NCBI GenBank assembly: GCA_903870415.1
Contig: CAIQDA010000077.1
Span: 1-33,294, forward strand
Length of the DNA stretch: 33,294 nt
Reading direction: 5' to 3'
DNA from: an uncultured delta proteobacterium
GTDB taxonomy: Bacteria; Myxococcota_A; Polyangia; Polyangiales; Polyangiaceae
Shown here: positions 16,705 through 26,873 of the stretch, in pieces
How positions within the stretch are numbered: position 1 is the stretch's first letter
Layout: each line of letters begins with the position of its first letter
Position numbers and translations under genes: made by a program
The notes under the pieces: generated by a model
What the model was told of the DNA's origin: nothing
Databases searched by the model: none
The model's input: only the letters and a program-made list of their open reading frames with translations

Positions 16705-18029
16705 CCTTCGCCGATTCCGATGCGTGCATTCCGCATGTGCCCTTTGCGGCGACACGCGGAGTTGTCATCGCGCTCGGCATCGCGCTCGGCGGCTGCAACA
16801 TCCGTGAACTCGCGGGGTCGATCGCCCAAACCATCATCCCCGTTGACGACGGCGGCACCGACGGTGGCCCGCCCGCGAAGGAAGCGTCCCTCGAAGGACG
16901 ACTTCTCGCCGAGCCGATCGCATGGCCTAGAACCCTCGAGCAACGCTGCACGCTGCGTGGTCGCCTGTGCGTGCGATCCGACGATCGCGACGCGTCCGAT
17001 GCGCTCGTGGCCGTGGCCGAAGGCGTTGAAGCCCGTCTCGACGGACTCGACAACTCGATGCAGACTGCACTCTTTGGCGCGGGGCCGATCACCTTCCTCG
17101 TGGGCGGCTCGGGCGGCGTTCGATCCCTCGGCCGCGAACGGACGACCGCGCGCCCTCGGCTCGCCCCGACGCTCTCACCGAGCGACGGAACCGAGGAGGC
17201 CCTCCTTGAGCGGCTCTTGGAGCTGCACGTTCTTCAGAGAAACCCGGCCGTGACCGCAACCGATGCGACGTCGATGGCCCGGGCTTTTTCCCTGCGCTGG
17301 GGCCTTGTGCGGCCACCGGTCGACCCCACACCAGAGGCTGCCGTGCTTGGCGCGACCCACGCCGACGGGGCGGGCTCCGATGGCCGCTTCCTCGCGTGGC
17401 TCGACGAGCGACTCTCACCGGCTGCTGGCTCGCTCCTTGGCGCTGCGCTGTCCAAAGCGTGGCGCGGCGACGACGGCGTCCAATGGCGCACCGCTGGCGA
17501 TCCGTGGTTCGTCCTCGCGCGAAACTTTTCGGGTGAAGACGACGGCGCACCTAAGCTCGACGAGCTTTTGCTTCGGCATGCGATCGAGGTTTCGAGCACG
17601 GCCGAGGGACGCAGCGCCTTGCCTTTTCGCTGGGATGAACCACTCCCGAAGAAAGCGCGCCGACTGCTTTCCGTGCGCGCCGTCGAGCCCACGGGCGTCA
17701 CGTGGTTGCGATTCGAACGCGAGGCCGACCACCCCTCCGCGTCGCTCGTCATTGCCCTCGATTGGGAGGAACACGCGCGCTTCCGCGTTTTTGCGCAGCT
17801 CCTCGACGCCGAGGGACGAGTCATTCGCACGCATCGCTTCGGAGCTCCGGTGCGTGAGCCTCACGTCGAAGCCACGCTCGAATCCCTCGATGGCGTCGCG
17901 TCCATCGTCCTCGGTGCCATCAACTTGGGGGACCCCGCCGCGCCGTTCGACCCGCGCGAGGGCCCATGGGAACCGCACGCGTTTCTTCTCACGGTGGCGC
18001 CAATGAATGGCGACGGCGGGTTTCTGTAA
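16701..18029 (+). CDS. Putative lipoprotein of unknown function
   Basis: The 442-residue protein has a short N-terminal signal ([12 protein letters not shown]) with a possible lipid-attachment C32, then an Asp/Gly-rich spacer. No family was recognised. The central part (~100-300) appears helical with repeated Leu/Glu blocks ([17 protein letters not shown]). The last ~120 residues alternate as beta strands ([36 protein letters not shown]), like a beta-sandwich. Location is probably the periplasmic face of a membrane. The start overlaps the ruvB stop (ATGA); the N-terminus before the hydrophobic stretch is slightly long for a lipoprotein. It ends one base before the stop of the convergent subtilase gene. 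Confidence 0.65.
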
Positions 18030-18030
18030 T

Positions 18031-20457
18031 CTACAAGCGTTTCGTTCGCGCGTGTCCGTGCCTGCGCTTCGCCATGGCCGCGAGAACGACTCCCGCGAGG
18101 AGCCTCGCGAACGAGTCGCGCGACGAGTTCGGCGTGAGCCCCATCGTGCACGAGGGCGCGAGCGAGACCCCGTAACGCGCGTCCCACGGACCGGCCCCTA
18201 CGGGAAGAACGAGCTCCGGGGCCACCAAGCGCGAGCCCGCGTACGCGCGGACGGTGAGCCAATGGCCTGCTTTTTGAGCGATGGGAGCGATGGCGAATTC
18301 GGTATCACCACGTGGCTCCAGGACCGCCGAGACCCCGTCGTCGAGACGCGCATCGATGCGCAATGCAACGTTTCCCGCGTCGGTCACGGAACCGTCCGCG
18401 CACCTGGCTTGCACACGAACGACGACGCCGTCCAAGCCGACCGCGGGCACGTAGGCGCGGCTCGCGGAAAGAAACCCCGCACGCGCATCGGGCTCGCAGT
18501 GCGCGGCACCGGATGCGAGAAACGTGAGCGCCGCGTCGATGTCGAGTTCGCCGGCGCCCGCGACGCCAGGCTGAGGATTCCCGCTCCGAAGCGCGTGGGC
18601 CGAACGCTGCAGCACCTCGCACAGCCGCGGTTGCGTGAGAGACGCGTCTCGCTCCAAAAGAAGGGCCAGCGCACCCGCCACGATGGGCGCGGACATCGAC
18701 GTGCCGAAGGCAAACCCGTGCGACCTGTCGGCCTGCAAGCAACGGCTATCGAGCATGCCGCCCGGTGCGGAGCATGTTGCGGTGAACATGGACCCGAGCG
18801 TTCCCGGCGTCGCCATGGCGCTCATGGCCCCGGCGATGGCGAGGCCCGGGGCACTGATCTCGGGCTTCGGCACGCCGCTCGACGTCGGCCCGGAACCTGA
18901 GAAATCGCAGACTTCTCCATCGTCGAGGTTCACCACACGCATAGGTGAGAGAGCCTCACCTCCCGCGGCGTCGAGCTCGGGCCGCGGGAACGCGAACGGT
19001 CCGTGCATTGACGCCGACATCCACGATGAGCGCGAGACCGTGCACCCCACCGCGATGAGCGACGGATGCACCGCAGGCTCGTCGACACTCCCCTCACGAA
19101 CCCCGTGCACGAAACCCGCATGCCCTTGGGACCGAAACGCGCCAGCGTCAAACCACAGGTCCGCGCGCCCCTCGCCCTCGATGAGAAGCTCGGGCGGTGT
19201 CAGGCCCCAGCGACCGTCCACAAGGACAACCGCGCTCGTGGATTCGCTGGGAATCTCCTCGATTGCGCTCGGACCATGAAGCACGGCCATCGCAAGGCCA
19301 CCTTCGTTTTTGGTCATCGTCAGCCCAAGGCCGAGAGGTGCGATCGCGAGCCGATTGTCCGAGGTGCGGACACCGATGCGCATGGTACTCCCTCGCGCAG
19401 CCGTCGCCCATACGCGAACAGTACCCTCCGTCGCAGCGCCCAGTCGGAACGGCACAACGACGGTACGCGACGAGAGCGCAAGCGCCTGATGGACGCCGTC
19501 CGAGGGCCGCCCACCGTTGCCTGCTGCGACCACGATCGCATGACCCGGCTTCGCATCGCCGACGTGCGCTGCGAGCGCTTTTTCCCACGCGAGAGACCCG
19601 TCGTGGGGACCGAAGTCCGTCCCTACCGAGAGGTTGAGCACGCACGGACGCCCCGCGACGTCGGCACGGTCGAAAGCGAACGCGGCCGCACGCTCGATGG
19701 CATCGGCCGTGATGTCAGGATACGCGCCGCCGGCGATTCGAATGAGCACGAGGTCCGCGTCGGGTGCCATTCCCACGTAGGCACCGGCGGGTGGCGCACC
19801 CGCGGCGAGGCTCGTCACGTGCGTTCCGTGTCCTTCGTCGTCGTCGATGGGCGACCTTCCGCTCGTGAGGGCCTCGTCGATCATCGCCGCATCGAACACA
19901 GCGCCGCGCACTGCGATTCCTGCCGTATTTCGCAGCGCGAATTTCTCCTCGAGCGCGCTGAACGTGCCTCGCGGCGCCTGCGTGAAATCGAGCGCCCACC
20001 GCACGCGCGTCGCGCCATCGGCACGCCGCAAGTCCGCGTGCGCCAGATCAAAGCCCGTGTCCGCCACCGCAACGACAACGCCGCGACCACTCGGAGAAAG
20101 AGCCCCTCGGGTGCGCGGATGAACCACCGCGAGGGCCGCGCGATCAAGGAGCGTGTGAAGCGGACCCGCTGCCTCGAACACGGTTCCCGGATACGTTTCC
20201 CGGAGCTTCACAAGGCCTGCGCGATCGACGTGCGCCGCGTCGGCCATCTCCAGCGGCGCGCGGTAACGTGCAGGAATTCGCGGCACAAGCCTCGCCCCGC
20301 GCCCGGCGAGCGCCTCGAGCAGGCGTGCGTTTTCAGGAGAGAGAAGCGCGGAGGCATCGGGAGCTCCCGCTTCGACGTGCCGTGACACCGACGCCAGCAT
20401 CAGCAGCGCCGCACCGAACCCTCGCACCACGCCGCGTCGTGCGTCGGAGGCCGTCAT
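18031..20457 (-). CDS. Secreted subtilisin-like serine protease (S8 family)
   Basis: The 808-residue protein has a signal peptide (GFGAALLMLASVSRHVEA) and an N-terminal extension to ~120. The S8 domain has catalytic D133 in VAVADTGFD, H210 in DEGHGTHVTSL, oxyanion N314 in VVAAGNGG, and S587 in FGTSMSAPIVAG, so it should be active. Between Asn and Ser lies an insert of ~190 residues of beta-rich sequence (330-520), longer than in simple subtilases. The region after 650 is beta-rich, and the end (SFARLLAGVVLAAMAKRR then a basic tail) resembles a hydrophobic-plus-arginine sorting tail with a preceding Cys (APSC). This suggests surface attachment, as in MYXO-CTERM proteins. It starts 12 bases after hemA on the same strand and converges, with one base between stops, on the 16701 lipoprotein gene. 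Confidence 0.92.
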   Translation of the reverse strand: MTASDARRGVVRGFGAALLMLASVSRHVEAGAPDASALLSPENARLLEALAGRGARLVPRIPARYRAPLEMADAAHVDRAGLVKLRETYPGTVFEAAGPLHTLLDRAALAVVHPRTRGALSPSGRGVVVAVADTGFDLAHADLRRADGATRVRWALDFTQAPRGTFSALEEKFALRNTAGIAVRGAVFDAAMIDEALTSGRSPIDDDEGHGTHVTSLAAGAPPAGAYVGMAPDADLVLIRIAGGAYPDITADAIERAAAFAFDRADVAGRPCVLNLSVGTDFGPHDGSLAWEKALAAHVGDAKPGHAIVVAAGNGGRPSDGVHQALALSSRTVVVPFRLGAATEGTVRVWATAARGSTMRIGVRTSDNRLAIAPLGLGLTMTKNEGGLAMAVLHGPSAIEEIPSESTSAVVLVDGRWGLTPPELLIEGEGRADLWFDAGAFRSQGHAGFVHGVREGSVDEPAVHPSLIAVGCTVSRSSWMSASMHGPFAFPRPELDAAGGEALSPMRVVNLDDGEVCDFSGSGPTSSGVPKPEISAPGLAIAGAMSAMATPGTLGSMFTATCSAPGGMLDSRCLQADRSHGFAFGTSMSAPIVAGALALLLERDASLTQPRLCEVLQRSAHALRSGNPQPGVAGAGELDIDAALTFLASGAAHCEPDARAGFLSASRAYVPAVGLDGVVVRVQARCADGSVTDAGNVALRIDARLDDGVSAVLEPRGDTEFAIAPIAQKAGHWLTVRAYAGSRLVAPELVLPVGAGPWDARYGVSLAPSCTMGLTPNSSRDSFARLLAGVVLAAMAKRRHGHARTKRL

Positions 20458-20469
20458 CGCGCCCCGTCG

Positions 20470-21777
20470 TCAGCCACCGCGAATCACGCGAAGGCCCGCA
20501 GCCGCGTCGTGCGCGTGGACCTCGTCGCCGAAGAGCTCGCTCGCCGCATCGACCAAATGTTCGTCCCCGGGAGTCGCTGCCGCTCGCTTCAATCGCACGA
20601 TGGTCGGGTGCACAAGCTTGTTCGTCGCGGCGTCGAGCATCGTCTCGAGGGCCTCCCGATCCATGTCCGTGAGATGCCGCAGCTTTCCCTTGAGCGAGCG
20701 TTCGAGCTCCGCGCGCAACACCGTGCGCGTGCGCTCCCGAAGCGAGACGATGAGCGGGTCGACGGTGCGCTCACGCCTGGCGCGAAGGTACGCCCCGAGC
20801 TCGTCGTTCACCACGGCCTCTGCGCGGTCCACACTCTCGCGCCGCGCCTCGACACCCTCGCGCACGATCGATTCGAGGTCGTCGATGTCGTAAACGTAAG
20901 CGCCGTCGAGGCCGTGAACGGACGCTTCGACGTTGCGCGGAAGGGCCACGTCGACGAAGAAAATGGGGCGTCCGCGGCGGGTCTTCAAGATGCGACGCAC
21001 CGCCTCCGTCGAGACCACGGGCTGCCGCGCGCCAGTGCTCACGACGACGACATCGGCATCGGTGATCGCCGGTTCGAGACGCTCCCACGGGATCGCTTGC
21101 GCTCCGTAGCGGCTTGCAAGGTCGGCGGCCTTCTCGAAGGAACGGTTGCAGACTACAAGTGAATGAGACGTTCCCGCCAAACTCTTCGCCGCGGCTTCGC
21201 CCATGTCGCCGGCGCCAAGCAGAAGGACGCGTACGTTTTTTAGGTCACCGAAAATGCGCTCGGCAAGCTCGATGGCCACACTGCTGATGCTCACGAGACC
21301 CGCGCCGATGCCTGTCTCGGTGCGCACACGCTTGGCGCATTGAAACGCGTGGCGCATCGTTCCCTGAAGCGATCCGCGAAGCGTGCCCCAACCATCGGCA
21401 CGGTCGTTCGCATCCTTCAATTGGCCGAGAATTTGTGGCTCGCCCACGACGAGCGAGTCGAGCGATGCGGCCACGCGGAAGAGATGACGAACGGCATCGT
21501 CTCCCTCATAGTGGTAGAATACATGCACATCGTCACGCTCGACGCCGTGCGCCTCACGGGTCAACGCGGCGCGCAGCACCTCGCCGGGCGGCGCCTCACC
21601 CTTGGTGCTCACCAACAACTCGGTGCGGTTGCACGTGGAGAGGACCATCACCCCGTCGACGCTTCCGCCGTCGAGGAGCGTCTTCGCGATCGACTCCTGC
21701 GCGTCCTCAGGGATGGCGTAGCGCTCCCGCACGTTCACAGCGGCGGTTCGGTGGGAGAGCCCCACGATGGCGATCAC
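20470..21777 (-). CDS. hemA: Glutamyl-tRNA reductase
   Basis: The 435-residue enzyme catalyses the first step of C5 tetrapyrrole synthesis, reducing glutamyl-tRNA to glutamate 1-semialdehyde with NADPH. It has IAIVGLSHRTAAVNVRERYA at the start, catalytic C49 in VLSTCNRTELLV, and HLFRVAASLDSLVVGEPQILGQ. The NADPH site is LLLGAGDMGEAAAKSLA, with RPIFFVDVALPRNVE and a C-terminal dimerisation helix region. The start is GTG at 21777: it gives the family N-terminus exactly and overlaps the upstream stop as GTGA, pointing to coupled translation. The longer upstream frame lies inside the hemX-like gene. HemL, its metabolic partner, is encoded at 9531-10823. Confidence 0.96.
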   Translation of the reverse strand: MIAIVGLSHRTAAVNVRERYAIPEDAQESIAKTLLDGGSVDGVMVLSTCNRTELLVSTKGEAPPGEVLRAALTREAHGVERDDVHVFYHYEGDDAVRHLFRVAASLDSLVVGEPQILGQLKDANDRADGWGTLRGSLQGTMRHAFQCAKRVRTETGIGAGLVSISSVAIELAERIFGDLKNVRVLLLGAGDMGEAAAKSLAGTSHSLVVCNRSFEKAADLASRYGAQAIPWERLEPAITDADVVVVSTGARQPVVSTEAVRRILKTRRGRPIFFVDVALPRNVEASVHGLDGAYVYDIDDLESIVREGVEARRESVDRAEAVVNDELGAYLRARRERTVDPLIVSLRERTRTVLRAELERSLKGKLRHLTDMDREALETMLDAATNKLVHPTIVRLKRAAATPGDEHLVDAASELFGDEVHAHDAAAGLRVIRGG

Positions 21778-22598
21778 GGCGAACCTCCGGACCCGACCGA
21801 TCGCACCGCGTACGCCAGCACGACGAGACTGGCGAACGCAAAACTCATGAGCGTTCCGACGGCGCTTCGTCGACCGCGCCACCCGCCGAGGGTCCTCGCG
21901 ACGAGCACGATCGCGAGAAGAGCCCACGACAAGATTCCGAAAAGCGCGCGAAGGCGAACTGAAGGCGCGCCGCTGAACGAGAGTCCGCCCGCCGGTGCCA
22001 ACGCGAGGCCTGCCGTGAGGAGCACGAAGCCGGCCACGGTCAAGTGATGGCCTGCGCGGTCGAGCGCGCCGAGCGACGGCAAAGCGTCCGCCCCCGAACG
22101 TCGGGTCTTTTGCTTCAGCCGCTTGTCCGCGATCAAGTACGCGCCGGCACTTGCTCCCGCAAAGAGCAGCAGCGCTTCGCCCACGATGTTCGCGGCCACG
22201 TGCAACGCGAGCTGGAGCGATCGGGCCGCCGTTCCATTTGCATCATGCACGCGTGCCGGAAGCGCCTCGCCCACCACGGCGAGCAACGTTGCGACAGGCA
22301 GCGCGACGCTCGCAAGCCACTCGCTTCGCGCACTCCATTGGCGCATCACGAGGAACACCAACGCGATGGCGAGACCCAGCGCCGTGAGCGCGACAGCGCT
22401 TGAATTGGTGGACGATGAGAACGCGTGCACCACGAGGATTCCATGGGCCACGCAACCCACGAGGAGCACCCACGGCGCGAACGCTGGGGCCCGTGCCACG
22501 CCTTTTTCGCCACGATCGCGAAGCGCGAAAACAAACGTACCCACCGCATAGGCGGCACACGTGACGGCGAAAAGGAGCGAGCGCAAAGCCAGAGGCAC
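21774..22598 (-). CDS. CcsA/HemX-like integral membrane protein
   Basis: The 274-residue protein is almost entirely membrane-spanning, with about eight hydrophobic segments (LLFAVTCAAYAVGTFVFAL, WVLLVGCVAHGILVVHAF, and a last pair ending FASLVVLAYAVRSV). It has the layout of cytochrome c assembly proteins (CcsA/CcmC/HemX). In several bacteria a HemX-like gene precedes hemA and its product influences glutamyl-tRNA reductase level or haem handling; the direct overlap with hemA here supports that group. The canonical WWD motif of CcsA is not evident, which argues for HemX over a true cytochrome c synthetase. The start is GTG at 22598, since a stop codon lies four codons upstream in frame. Confidence 0.8.
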   Translation of the reverse strand: MPLALRSLLFAVTCAAYAVGTFVFALRDRGEKGVARAPAFAPWVLLVGCVAHGILVVHAFSSSTNSSAVALTALGLAIALVFLVMRQWSARSEWLASVALPVATLLAVVGEALPARVHDANGTAARSLQLALHVAANIVGEALLLFAGASAGAYLIADKRLKQKTRRSGADALPSLGALDRAGHHLTVAGFVLLTAGLALAPAGGLSFSGAPSVRLRALFGILSWALLAIVLVARTLGGWRGRRSAVGTLMSFAFASLVVLAYAVRSVGSGGSP

Positions 22599-22889: not shown

Positions 22890-23438
22890 CTAGGCTCCGC
22901 GTACGAGCGACAGCTTCGAATGCAAGAACGTCTGGAGGCGTTCGAGCTCGCGCGCATCGCGCTGAAGCGGGCTCTCCTTGTATTCTACACACCACTCAAG
23001 AGCCTCGGCGGCGAGACCGTTCGAGAGGCTCGGGTCCGCGGCGATTTGGGATGCGGTTCGGCCCTTCGTGACGTGGTCGCGAAGCCCGCCCACGTAGGTG
23101 CGGAACCGTGCATAATCGCTCCCGAGAAACGACTTCACCTCGTCGTTGTCGGTGGCCAGTCGCCGCAGCGCGTGCGGGGCTCCAACGCCGACCGCCTCCA
23201 CCGCAAGCGCCGCTGCGGTTCGGAGGACAAACGCGTCGTCGAGATACCCGATGCCCTCGATGCCATCGGGGATGAGGTCGAGGTTGCGGGTGAGGTACGT
23301 GATGCCCGCGGCAACGTAGGACCGAACTCCCTCCGCCTCGCGTGGACTCAGAAGGCTCGCCATGCCGCGCACGTCGGCGGGGAGCGTCTTCAACCAAAGG
23401 GAAAATACCTCAATGCGGCGCGCGGAAATCGAATCCAT
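22890..23438 (-). CDS. DUF1232 (YkvA-like) protein
   Basis: The 182-residue protein contains the DUF1232 signature YLTRNLDLIPDGIEGIGYLDD around residues 50-70, matching the 'DLIPD..p.lGyiDD' core of YkvA-like proteins. The rest is mostly helical (RRIEVFSLWLKTLPADVRGMASLL, ALEWCVEYKESPLQRDARELERLQTFL). Function in the family is not established; members are often small helical, sometimes membrane-associated proteins. Here the helices flanking the signature are amphipathic rather than clearly transmembrane. The start MDSISARRIEV has a GAACGAGGA stretch just upstream. It lies 61 bases downstream of the acidic protein gene in a same-strand run headed by a Ser/Thr kinase. Confidence 0.75.
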   Translation of the reverse strand: MDSISARRIEVFSLWLKTLPADVRGMASLLSPREAEGVRSYVAAGITYLTRNLDLIPDGIEGIGYLDDAFVLRTAAALAVEAVGVGAPHALRRLATDNDEVKSFLGSDYARFRTYVGGLRDHVTKGRTASQIAADPSLSNGLAAEALEWCVEYKESPLQRDARELERLQTFLHSKLSLVRGA

Positions 23439-23499
23439 GGCAGTCCTCGTTCGCGTCACCGTACCCCAAAGCGGGCGACACGAGGAGCTCTGCCGCGCA

Positions 23500-23943
23500 T
23501 CACCACGCGTCGGAACGAGGCCGAAGCGCGAGCGACGCCGCAACAAGCCATCCCAAGGGCTCGTGGTCGATCGAACGCACGGCATCTGCACCGGCACCCG
23601 CAAGCACGTGCACGAGGTCCGCGATGGGGCGGTCGCCAACAATTTCCAAAAGCGGCGCTTCGTCATCGCCCGCGACCGCGGGTGCGTCGGAGACAAAGAG
23701 CTCCGGTGACGATTCATCGAGCTCGAAGGGTGCGCCCGGTGAGACGCGAAGTCGCGGCGACGACTCGATCACGGCGTCATCGTCGATTGCCGCGTCGTGG
23801 CCGACCTCAAGCAGCGCGAACGCTTCGTGGCCGTGGGCTTCGTCGTCGGCGTGGGCGACAACGAGGGAGGGCCACGTGGAGCGACTCCGCGCACGAACAC
23901 GCTCAAGGAGCGCGACGAGTTCGCCGATGGCCGCGTCGCTCAC
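23500..23943 (-). CDS. Small acidic protein of unknown function
   Basis: The 147-residue protein is strongly acidic (stretches such as DAAIDDDAVIES and FELDESSPELFVSD). It begins with a helix SDAAIGELVALLERVRARS and ends with a helix-rich part (PIADLVHVLAGAGADAVRSI). No family was recognised, and no signal peptide or membrane segment is visible. The start overlaps the stop of the preceding gene (ATGA), and codon use (GC-rich third positions, ordered residue pattern) supports real coding, in contrast to the Arg-rich antisense frame. It could be a partner or target of the kinase encoded two genes upstream; this is inference from position only. Confidence 0.6.
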   Translation of the reverse strand: MSDAAIGELVALLERVRARSRSTWPSLVVAHADDEAHGHEAFALLEVGHDAAIDDDAVIESSPRLRVSPGAPFELDESSPELFVSDAPAVAGDDEAPLLEIVGDRPIADLVHVLAGAGADAVRSIDHEPLGWLVAASLALRPRSDAW

Positions 23944-24401
23944 GACGGGTCCTGCGCATGGAGAAAACGCGCGGCATGCTCAAGTGAACCCACGTGCTTT
24001 GCGCGAAGAAACGCCGCGACGCCGGGATCGACAATCGCCAGCGACCAGCCACCGTCGCCGTCGTCAAATGCCAAGGCCCCAACCTCACGACCGGTCGCCG
24101 AACCGAGAACGGCCCCGACGAACGACTCCGCGAGCGCACCAAGGCGGAAGGTTGGAGACTCGAGCCGCACGACGAGCAACGGGCCGACCGCCGAGCACGA
24201 GGCCGGGCCGAACCCGAACTCCTCAAGACCCGCAGACACCGTGTTCATCGCCGCGAGGGCGGAGTCATGCTCGTCAAGCGGCGACACGATGGCGGCACCA
24301 AGGACGCTGCCTATCGTGTCGACCGTCGCGCGCCCCTGCAATGCGGCTTCGAGAACCGTGACCGGAACGGTGGGAACGACAGGGCCTAGCCCGTCAGCCA
24401 T
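23940..24401 (-). CDS. Small V4R-like protein next to a Ser/Thr kinase
   Basis: The 153-residue protein starts at MADGLGPVV (an ATG 12 bases earlier is possible). It has an N-terminal helical part, then EFGFGPASCSAVGPLLVVRLESPTF, LAESFVGAVLGSATGREVGAL and a final strand GGWSLAIVDP. The order 'GwG..., vvrv.nSPf..., f.aGvl.g.l.g..., GD..C.F.v' is that of the V4R / TRAPP-Bet3 fold, a small-molecule binding domain, though the zinc-binding cysteines of classical V4R are lacking. This is a visual match, not a search result. It overlaps the kinase stop by eight bases and the next gene by four, so all three are probably translated together. Confidence 0.6.
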   Translation of the reverse strand: MADGLGPVVPTVPVTVLEAALQGRATVDTIGSVLGAAIVSPLDEHDSALAAMNTVSAGLEEFGFGPASCSAVGPLLVVRLESPTFRLGALAESFVGAVLGSATGREVGALAFDDGDGGWSLAIVDPGVAAFLRAKHVGSLEHAARFLHAQDPS

Positions 24402-26109
24402 CGGACGCCGCACGCTGCTGCGAAGGCACCGCCATGCTCGCGTTCTGAATCACCTCGGCAAGCAGGTCGCGCACCTCGGGCTTGGACTTCAAGTGACCGA
24501 TGAGCGTTTGCATGAGTTCGCCGAAGGTCTTCTCGTAGCCGACGCCTTCACGCGTCCGCGTTGCGACGCGCTCGCGGCCACTCGCGAGGTCTTCCTCGAG
24601 CGCCTCGGCGTAGCGTGCAAGCTGCGACCGCAGTTCATCGATTTGGCGGCGAAGGTCCCGCGCTTGCGCTTCCTTTTGCACGGCCTTTTGCTCGTGCTCG
24701 TGGAGTTGCTCGCGACGGGCCTCGAGCATCGCAACGGCGGCTCCGGCGCGCTCAAAAACGGATCGAGCGCCGTCGCTCGTCATCGGCGTTACGTCGGCCT
24801 GTTGACGCGAAAGAATCGCTGCGCGCTCAGCGGCCTGCACGGTCTCTTTGAGACGCACGACCTCTGCTTGTTCCGACGTGACGTCACGAAGGACGCGCGA
24901 CTCTTCGTGCGCGAGCTCCTCGACCTTACGGCCGATTTCCGCGCGCAACGCACGACCGCGGCGTTCAAGCGCCTCGAGCTTTCGCGTGTGGCTGGCGACT
25001 TCGCCTTCGAGGCGATTGGCCTTCGCAGCCAAGTCCCAAAGTTGATTGGTCGCGCCCATGATCTCTGCAGGCGCGTTGGCTTGCGGGTATGCGCGGCTGA
25101 CCATGCGGGCGAACGACGCCGCGCGACTTGCCCACTCGATGACCGCGGGGGTCTGCGGTGGCGGCGGTGGCGGCGGTGGCGCGCCTTCGCCGGGCGAGTT
25201 GATTTCCCAGGGCGTGCTCGGGAGCGCGCGCTGAAGACCCTTGAGCTCTTCGTGAAGGTGGTGGGCGTCCTGGTAACGCTTGCGCCGGTCCTTTTCGAGA
25301 AGCTTTGAAATGATGTTTTCCGCCTGGGGCAACAGGTCGGGCTTGAGCTGCCGCGGCCTCACCGGCGTACCCGATCGCTGAAGTTCGAGGAGCGTCTCGC
25401 GGTCGTCGCTTCGGAAAGGCAACTGCCCTGTCACCATCTCGTAGAAGAGAATGCCGAGCGCGTAGAGATCGCTCTGCGGACCAGCCTCTTCGCCACGCGC
25501 TTGCTCCGGCGACATATATTCGGGAGTACCGAAAATAGCCCCCTTCGGTGCGAGACGTGGATCCATCGCGAGGTGCGCGAGTCCGAAGTCGAGAATCTTG
25601 ACGAAGTCTTTTCGACCGCCGCGCGTGGTGAGCAGAATGTTGTCGCTCTTGAGATCGCGGTGAACGACGCCAAGGTCGTGCGCACGAGCAAGAGCCGCGC
25701 AGAGCTGCTCAAGAATGTCCGTCGCGCGGGTGACAGGCACCGGTCCGCGCGCGAGCTCCGTCGAGAGCGACGTGCCCACGAGGTATTCCATCACGAGATA
25801 GAGTTCGCCCTCTTCTGTCTCGCCGATGTCGTGAATGTCGATGATGTGCGCATGGTCGACACGGTTGGCCGCGCGCGCTTCTCGAAGCATCCACGCTCGG
25901 AGGTGGGTTTCCCCACGCAGGTCCGGGCGAATGAGCTTGAGGGCGACGACGCGATCGATGAGCACGTGCCGCGCGCGGTACACGATGCCCATGCCACCTT
26001 CGCCAACACGTGTCTCGAGGCGATAGCGCCCCGCGATCACGCGGCCAATCATCGGGTCGGACGGCTTTGCCGTTCCACTGGGTGCGGGACCACTACGCTG
26101 CGCTTGCAT
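24394..26109 (-). CDS. Soluble Ser/Thr protein kinase with coiled-coil C-terminus
   Basis: The 571-residue protein starts at MQAQRSGPAPSG; the long upstream open frame is Arg/His-rich and lacks family features. The kinase domain (~28-295) shows VGEGGMGIVYRA, lysine K58 in VALKLI, HRDLKSDNILL with D152, DFG (174-176), GTPEYMSPEQARG and QSDLYALGILFYEMVTG, so it should be active. Eight prolines in a row (311-318) link it to a ~220-residue C-terminal part with long heptad-like helices (EEL, ERRGRALRAEIGRKVEEL, EQKAVQKEAQARDLRRQIDEL). These point to a dimeric coiled coil. No transmembrane helix is present, unlike the kinase at 3412-4809. It heads a run with a V4R-like, an acidic and a DUF1232 protein. 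Confidence 0.93.
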   Translation of the reverse strand: MQAQRSGPAPSGTAKPSDPMIGRVIAGRYRLETRVGEGGMGIVYRARHVLIDRVVALKLIRPDLRGETHLRAWMLREARAANRVDHAHIIDIHDIGETEEGELYLVMEYLVGTSLSTELARGPVPVTRATDILEQLCAALARAHDLGVVHRDLKSDNILLTTRGGRKDFVKILDFGLAHLAMDPRLAPKGAIFGTPEYMSPEQARGEEAGPQSDLYALGILFYEMVTGQLPFRSDDRETLLELQRSGTPVRPRQLKPDLLPQAENIISKLLEKDRRKRYQDAHHLHEELKGLQRALPSTPWEINSPGEGAPPPPPPPPQTPAVIEWASRAASFARMVSRAYPQANAPAEIMGATNQLWDLAAKANRLEGEVASHTRKLEALERRGRALRAEIGRKVEELAHEESRVLRDVTSEQAEVVRLKETVQAAERAAILSRQQADVTPMTSDGARSVFERAGAAVAMLEARREQLHEHEQKAVQKEAQARDLRRQIDELRSQLARYAEALEEDLASGRERVATRTREGVGYEKTFGELMQTLIGHLKSKPEVRDLLAEVIQNASMAVPSQQRAASDG

Positions 26110-26212: not shown

Positions 26213-26677
26213 TCATGGCGATTTTTGTGTCGAAAGGTCGGCGTCGGGTTGGACCGGACGTGCGAGTGGCGAAGCGTCCTCCGATGCCTCGGGTGAGGGT
26301 GGCTCAGCCGCACGGGACCAGAGAAGAACCACGGCGGGAATGAGAAAGCCCAGGGTGGCCGCTCGCAGCGTCGCCGTCGCGGTGGATTCGCGTTCGAGGG
26401 AACCGGCCCAGAATCCGGCGCCAAGACCCGCTCCTGCGCCGAAACCGAGCGACCACGCCCATGCCGACGATTCGTGCGCCCCGAACGCGGACGCGGCCAA
26501 AACGCCAAGTTCGAGGCCGAGAACGATTCCAGTGGCTGGGGGTTCGAAACCGTGAGTGTCCGCGCGCGCCGAGACCGCGACGCAAACCAGAGCCGCCGCC
26601 GCGCGTGTGGCTACGTTGAAACGGCGATTCGGGCCTGCTACGGCCCCAAAGTGCGCGTGTCGCGCTGAGGGCATCAT
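26213..26677 (-). CDS. Small membrane protein of unknown function
   Basis: The 154-residue protein has an N-terminal hydrophobic segment (AAAALVCVAVSARA), Gly/Ala-rich membrane segments (GIVLGLELGVLAASAFGA, WSLGFGAGAGLGAGFWAG) and a last helix LGFLIPAVVLLWSRA. An acidic, Pro-rich tail follows. No family was recognised. Two ATG codons are adjacent (26677 and 26674); the first overlaps the ATG of tatA on the other strand. The start region is therefore shared head-to-head with tatA, and upstream control elements of each must lie inside the other gene. Confidence 0.65.
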   Translation of the reverse strand: MMPSARHAHFGAVAGPNRRFNVATRAAAALVCVAVSARADTHGFEPPATGIVLGLELGVLAASAFGAHESSAWAWSLGFGAGAGLGAGFWAGSLERESTATATLRAATLGFLIPAVVLLWSRAAEPPSPEASEDASPLARPVQPDADLSTQKSP

Positions 26678-26873
26678 GGGAAATCTAGGACCTATGGAAA
26701 TTCTGGTCATCGCCGGTGTGGCGCTGCTGCTCTTCGGGGGCAAGCGCCTCGCGGATATCGGAGGCGGACTTGGCCAGGGTATCAAGTCCTTCAAGCAAGG
26801 GCTTCGCGAAGCGGACGCGGATGAGAAGTCCGCTTCGAAAGACGCGCCGACGAAGGACACGAACATCAGCTGA
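26676..26873 (+). CDS. tatA: Sec-independent translocase TatA-family protein
   Basis: The 65-residue protein has the TatA/E layout: a short N-terminal transmembrane helix (MEILVIAGVALLLFG, residues 7-21), then a FGGKRL hinge in place of the common FGPKKL. An amphipathic helix LADIGGGLGQGIKSFKQGLRE and a charged tail complete it. TatA oligomers form the twin-arginine translocation pore in the inner membrane. tatB and tatC are not adjacent. It may also be a TatA/E paralogue. Its ATG overlaps the start of the divergent membrane protein gene, and a hairpin with a seven-T tract lies about 50 bases after its stop. Confidence 0.9.
   Translation: MGNLGPMEILVIAGVALLLFGGKRLADIGGGLGQGIKSFKQGLREADADEKSASKDAPTKDTNIS

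Follow-up and report, generated by a model that had tools for sequence, protein, structure and literature searches.

The window analysed here, a 33,294-nucleotide stretch of a 4.7 Mb draft genome of Polyangiales type, carries four consecutive genes on its minus strand: a Ser/Thr protein kinase of 571 aa (24394-26109; Pfam Pkinase), a V4R-like protein of 153 aa, named P0002 (23940-24401; recognized by its fold and by a homologue profile), an acidic protein of 147 aa, named P0003 (23500-23943; recognized by gene order and motifs), and a DUF1232 protein of 182 aa, named P0004 (22890-23438; Pfam). This layout is exactly the one that an earlier note on this DNA had described. The kinase and P0002 genes overlap by 8 bases (ATGGCTGA), with the P0002 ATG lying inside the kinase stop region; the P0002 and P0003 genes overlap by 4 bases (GTGA), and the DUF1232 gene starts 61 bases after the acidic gene. 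In codon-level comparisons within the genus, each of the four genes shows purifying selection (dN/dS ~0.06 for the kinase, 0.2-0.3 for the V4R-like gene, 0.2-0.4 for the acidic gene and 0.2 for the DUF1232 gene), and each evolves like a genuine protein-coding gene.

Downstream of the DUF1232 gene, here and in genome G002, lies a gene for a CcsA-like cytochrome c assembly protein (21774-22598, minus strand), and beyond it hemA, encoding glutamyl-tRNA reductase (20470-21801, minus strand). On the other side of the locus, the kinase gene is preceded by a gene for a Gly-rich, probable membrane protein (26213-26866, minus strand; its true start probably further in), which, by position alone, corresponds to the gene of ~200-250 aa that most relatives have between tatA and the kinase. 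Next to it is the TatA-family gene itself (26556-26873, plus strand), which in many relatives, too, stands beside the kinase in divergent orientation.

The kinase and its DUF1232 neighbour

The kinase is strongly matched by Pkinase (PF00069; E 1.4e-49) and has the G-loop, HRD and DFG motifs. Its kinase domain (residues ~21-290) is followed by a Pro8 linker (~310-318) and a coiled-coil tail (~355-515), and it looks soluble since it has no hydrophobic segment (top 19-residue Kyte-Doolittle mean 1.05). Kinases in general are frequent in this genome, in which at least 50 places match the domain. This particular kinase is among the most conserved proteins of the analysis: of 59 relatives searched, 58 have a match at E 1e-70 or better, in most cases with 60-77% identity over domain and coiled-coil tail, and its identity across the order is 60-90% along its length, with near-99% identical blocks in both the domain and the tail. 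The nearest named record, a metagenome-assembled genome labelled Polyangium aurulentum, has a kinase that is 90% identical. In the class as sampled, the tail-bearing form was seen only in the order and in two further families, f17 and f18.

The DUF1232 protein scores 29.2 bits against PF06803 (Pfam cut-off 23 bits), and the open literature holds nothing useful on the function of this domain. A partial second match of DUF1232 type lies on another contig of the genome, at G000:C249:11688-11855 (61% over the last 56 residues). In relatives, tatA and the ~200-250 aa gene are found upstream of the kinase, a TetR-like regulator is nearby in some, and the DUF1232 gene lies downstream in most genera, in convergent orientation. 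Because the neighbours vary and the DUF1232 gene is usually convergent, the kinase and DUF1232 genes form an old Polyangiales neighbourhood and not an operon. Sorangium, Polyangium and Minicystis place the kinase, on one strand, between genes for a histidine kinase and an H+-pumping pyrophosphatase (L098:8614-11076, L099, L100, L103).

An order-wide pair of a V4R-like and an acidic protein

P0002 and P0003 have no Pfam or NCBIfam name. A simple BLAST search of GTDB contigs with P0002 gave no match, and BLAST detects the protein only within its genus. A profile built from three rows found homologues in two more genomes, and the addition of those gave a profile that works across the order: with it, the family was detected in at least 154 of 183 Polyangiales genomes, almost every one of which has a single copy. 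When the profile was built without the genus, P0002 was its sole match in the window (E 8e-8). By these profile matches, P0002 belongs to an order-wide family of proteins of ~185 residues, within which it is shortened and evolves fast; it lacks the family's N-terminal segment and ERWG motif.

The acidic protein is the lasting partner of the V4R-like protein, as the earlier note's pairing of the two implied: the 4-base overlap between their genes recurs in 40 of 41 order loci. Partner proteins are acidic and Pro-rich (134-1193 aa, median 326 aa; median pI 4.3) and probably disordered. Their consensus consists of an N-terminal helix (RIxKLExLLxRVxxRA; the L..LL..V pattern is present in 38 of 39), often SSxR and TPPPESG (PPxSG in 32 of 39), and a C-terminal TFGxLLDASLxL. 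The longest, of 1193 aa and ~4 times the usual length, is encoded from L190:8133 onward in a 16 Mb genome. P0003 (pI 4.35) keeps the N-terminal LLxRV helix, the ESS-R motif and a C-terminal LVxASLALRPR, and has lost TPPPESG. It is the best match to the partner profile in the window, but a weak one (E 0.006), and its membership thus rests on gene order and motifs. Given the loss of the N-terminal segment, ERWG and TPPPESG, the function of the genus version may have drifted. We also noticed a resemblance between KTFGELMQTL in the kinase tail and TFGELLDATLSL at the C-terminus of the partner, and judged it to be chance, as this stretch of the kinase varies among orthologues.

Probable relocation of the pair and its coupling to the kinase

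The earlier note had raised the possibility of a four-gene signalling module, an idea that it would give up if the order proved not to be conserved beyond close relatives. We found the four-gene order only in this genus, where both other genomes have the identical gene order with identical 8-base and 4-base overlaps; the genus sample comprises three genomes, in draft assemblies. Of 80 named relatives, none outside the genus carries a P0002 or P0003 homologue beside the kinase. By the note's own standard, a conserved four-gene module is therefore rejected. On contigs of other genera that carry both, kinase and pair are ~118 kb (G028 and G037), 0.76 Mb (G021), 2.1 Mb (G047) or 5.8 Mb (G036) apart, and the complete Sorangium genomes have the kinase with no pair at the sensitivity of our profiles.

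The usual locus of the pair consists of a subtilisin-like gene, a gene we call c0, the pair, and then miaA/mutL or coaX. The c0 protein (~340-560 aa) is probably secreted and has no Pfam match, and at almost every locus examined (L184-L203 and the window) its gene runs divergently from the pair. Both of the usual neighbours are found a few kilobases from the pair in the window: a subtilisin-like (S8) protease gene (18031-20457, minus strand), whose product is homologous (43%) to that of the gene two upstream of the pair at the ancestral locus, and a homologue (36%) of the c0 gene there (16737-18029, plus strand), the only copy in the genome. Since these neighbours are also present, the simplest reading of the gene orders is that a local rearrangement in the genus ancestor put the pair between the kinase and DUF1232 genes.

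We hypothesize that two long-standing units of Polyangiales have come together at this locus, the first being the highly conserved coiled-coil-tail kinase with its DUF1232 neighbour and the second the V4R-fold protein with its acidic, Pro-rich partner, and that the pair serves as a scaffold or adaptor co-expressed with the kinase. The relocated second unit would have become translationally coupled to the kinase through the 8-base overlap. We hold this reading, taken as a whole, tentatively, at a little short of even confidence.

A serious competitor, which we nonetheless consider somewhat improbable, is that the rearrangement left the pair behind the kinase with no functional tie, the overlaps being a compact junction that has simply not been broken. 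That the arrangement is confined to three genomes of one genus would fit such an accident, as would the separation of kinase and pair elsewhere, the Sorangium genomes that keep the kinase without the pair, and the pair's rate of evolution, which is several times that of the kinase. Against it, the exact 8-base and 4-base overlaps have been kept in three species despite dS >1, and the move made a same-strand, coupled operon, which is more than mere proximity. The same observations bear on kinase control, which is an unproven candidate: the coupling kept in three species and the adjacency of V4R proteins to other kinases in the class speak for it, and the Sorangium kinase with no detectable pair and the unlinked pairs of other genera speak against it. 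The common absence of kinase and pair outside the order and f17/f18, in the class as sampled, may reflect ancestry alone.

Fold of the V4R-like protein and a possible scaffold

AlphaFold prediction of P0002 from three sequences was poor (pLDDT 67), and this low-confidence model matched the XylR_N/V4R-TRAPP fold at Z 7. A canonical homologue, L158, modelled from 36 sequences, gave pLDDT 94.8 and pTM 0.89. Its model matched the sensor domains of MopR, PoxR and DmpR at Z 12.5-13.5 over residues 1-167 (MopR/PoxR: Z 13.5, 154 residues aligned, 3.6 A), TRAPP Bet3/TPC6 at Z 10-12 (Bet3-Trs33 Z 11.9), BcsD at Z 10-11 (11.0), the V4R protein MJ1460 at Z 10.7 and YslB at Z 8.3. The 153-residue protein was thus rightly called V4R-like, in that its family has the XylR_N/V4R-TRAPP fold. 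A likeness to FtsK in the first, low-confidence model (Z ~5) was absent among the matches listed for the better one and was set aside. None of the 36 family members matched the V4R Pfam model PF02830, and in any one alignment column at most 16 of 40 sequences have Cys, so the conserved Zn-binding Cys/Glu set is absent; together, these results do not support a sensor of the zinc type.

The earlier note had also suggested that the V4R-like protein could sense a ligand, V4R domains being known to bind small hydrophobic molecules, and control the kinase, with the acidic protein as substrate or adaptor. We consider this unlikely: the top fold matches are indeed phenol-sensing domains, the family profile finds the N-terminus (residues 1-69) of a Sorangium protein of XylR_N/V4R/sigma-54-activator type (L240:1468-3138), and V4R proteins stand beside Ser/Thr kinases in bilin clusters of the same class and beside SpkG in cyanobacteria, but the missing zinc set makes ligand sensing less likely, the N-terminal segment and ERWG are gone from the version in this genus, and elsewhere in the order this kinase and the pair are not adjacent.

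Under the two-unit reading, the V4R-fold protein would bind protein without zinc, forming a core of dimers or oligomers that grips the helices at the ends of its disordered partner. Complex formation between the two proteins is likely. That the complex acts as a cytoplasmic scaffold or adaptor, in the manner of BcsD with the Pro-rich BcsH or BcsP, is a more tentative proposal, drawn by analogy, and one that we would put on the doubtful side of even. The co-expression of the pair with the kinase suggests a further step, in which the kinase would tune assembly or docking by phosphorylating the disordered partner at Ser/Thr sites; we regard phosphorylation by this kinase as rather unlikely. Carried furthest, the analogy would give a Polyangiales cytoplasmic scaffold or filament unrelated to cellulose, made of V4R-fold units strung together by an acidic, Pro-rich, disordered protein, with assembly set through phosphorylation by the coiled-coil kinase, which is as conserved as the pair, and with all parts in one operon here; this extended picture is quite improbable and is offered as speculation.

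In place of a four-gene module of one genus, these data reveal something broader: most of a large order retains a gene pair that lacks annotation and whose fold is otherwise seen in sensors, in the vesicle-tethering TRAPP complex and in the cellulose scaffold protein BcsD. The joining of this pair to an order-wide kinase in one genus yields a concrete guess at which kinase may act on it.

Comparison with known systems

TRAPP Bet3/TPC6 have the fold in common with the V4R-like protein, which differs from them in lacking the conserved acylated cysteine and known partner subunits. V4R proteins are encoded beside Ser/Thr kinases in bilin (BBAG) clusters and in the cyanobacterial slr0144-slr0152 operon, in which they occur with the kinase SpkG. 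In families f14 and f16 of the same class, genes for distant homologues of the V4R-like protein end 5-10 bases before those of other Ser/Thr kinases, within bilin-type clusters that contain ferredoxin, a zinc-type V4R protein, a phycobilisome-type globin, bilin reductase and heme oxygenase; PMC10151467 describes clusters of this type. The present locus is distinct from these in that its kinase is a different one and that ferredoxin, bilin globin, heme oxygenase and bilin reductase are absent among the window genes scanned.

In further families of Polyangia, clusters at L246:1263-8795, L248:1188-8130, L249:3627-10650 and L250:1733-6419 encode a 2Fe-2S ferredoxin, a V4R protein, a phycobilisome-type globin, a second, zinc-less V4R-like protein and one or more Ser/Thr kinases; L246 also has heme oxygenase and bilin reductase (checked with Pfam), and L248 and L249 have heme-oxygenase-like genes. 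They resemble the BBAG/pre-PcyA bilin cluster with kinases added, the BBAG type being composed of an Fe-S protein, a bilin globin, two V4R proteins and often HO/FDBR.

The NtrC-type phenol regulators MopR, PoxR and DmpR share the fold along nearly the whole protein. In contrast to them, the pair protein stands alone, with no AAA+ or HTH domain and no conserved zinc cysteines, and it has a constant acidic partner. BcsD differs from the pair protein in its surroundings, as the loci examined hold no bcs genes and the neighbours are instead the S8 protease, c0 and miaA/mutL or coaX; at the sequence level, the BcsD family PF03500 gave marginal Pfam matches to 2 of 36 members (best E 0.039), and BcsD chains in the PDB matched at E ~0.7. 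BcsD is characterized by ring-like oligomers that a Pro-rich partner strings together, and the pair, for its part, includes the gene of a constant acidic, Pro-rich partner. BcsD with the Pro-rich BcsH or BcsP forms a cytoskeletal scaffold in cellulose secretion (PMC11470070), and BcsD with BcsH/CcpAx or BcsP likewise combines a small TRAPP-like protein with the gene of a Pro-rich partner.
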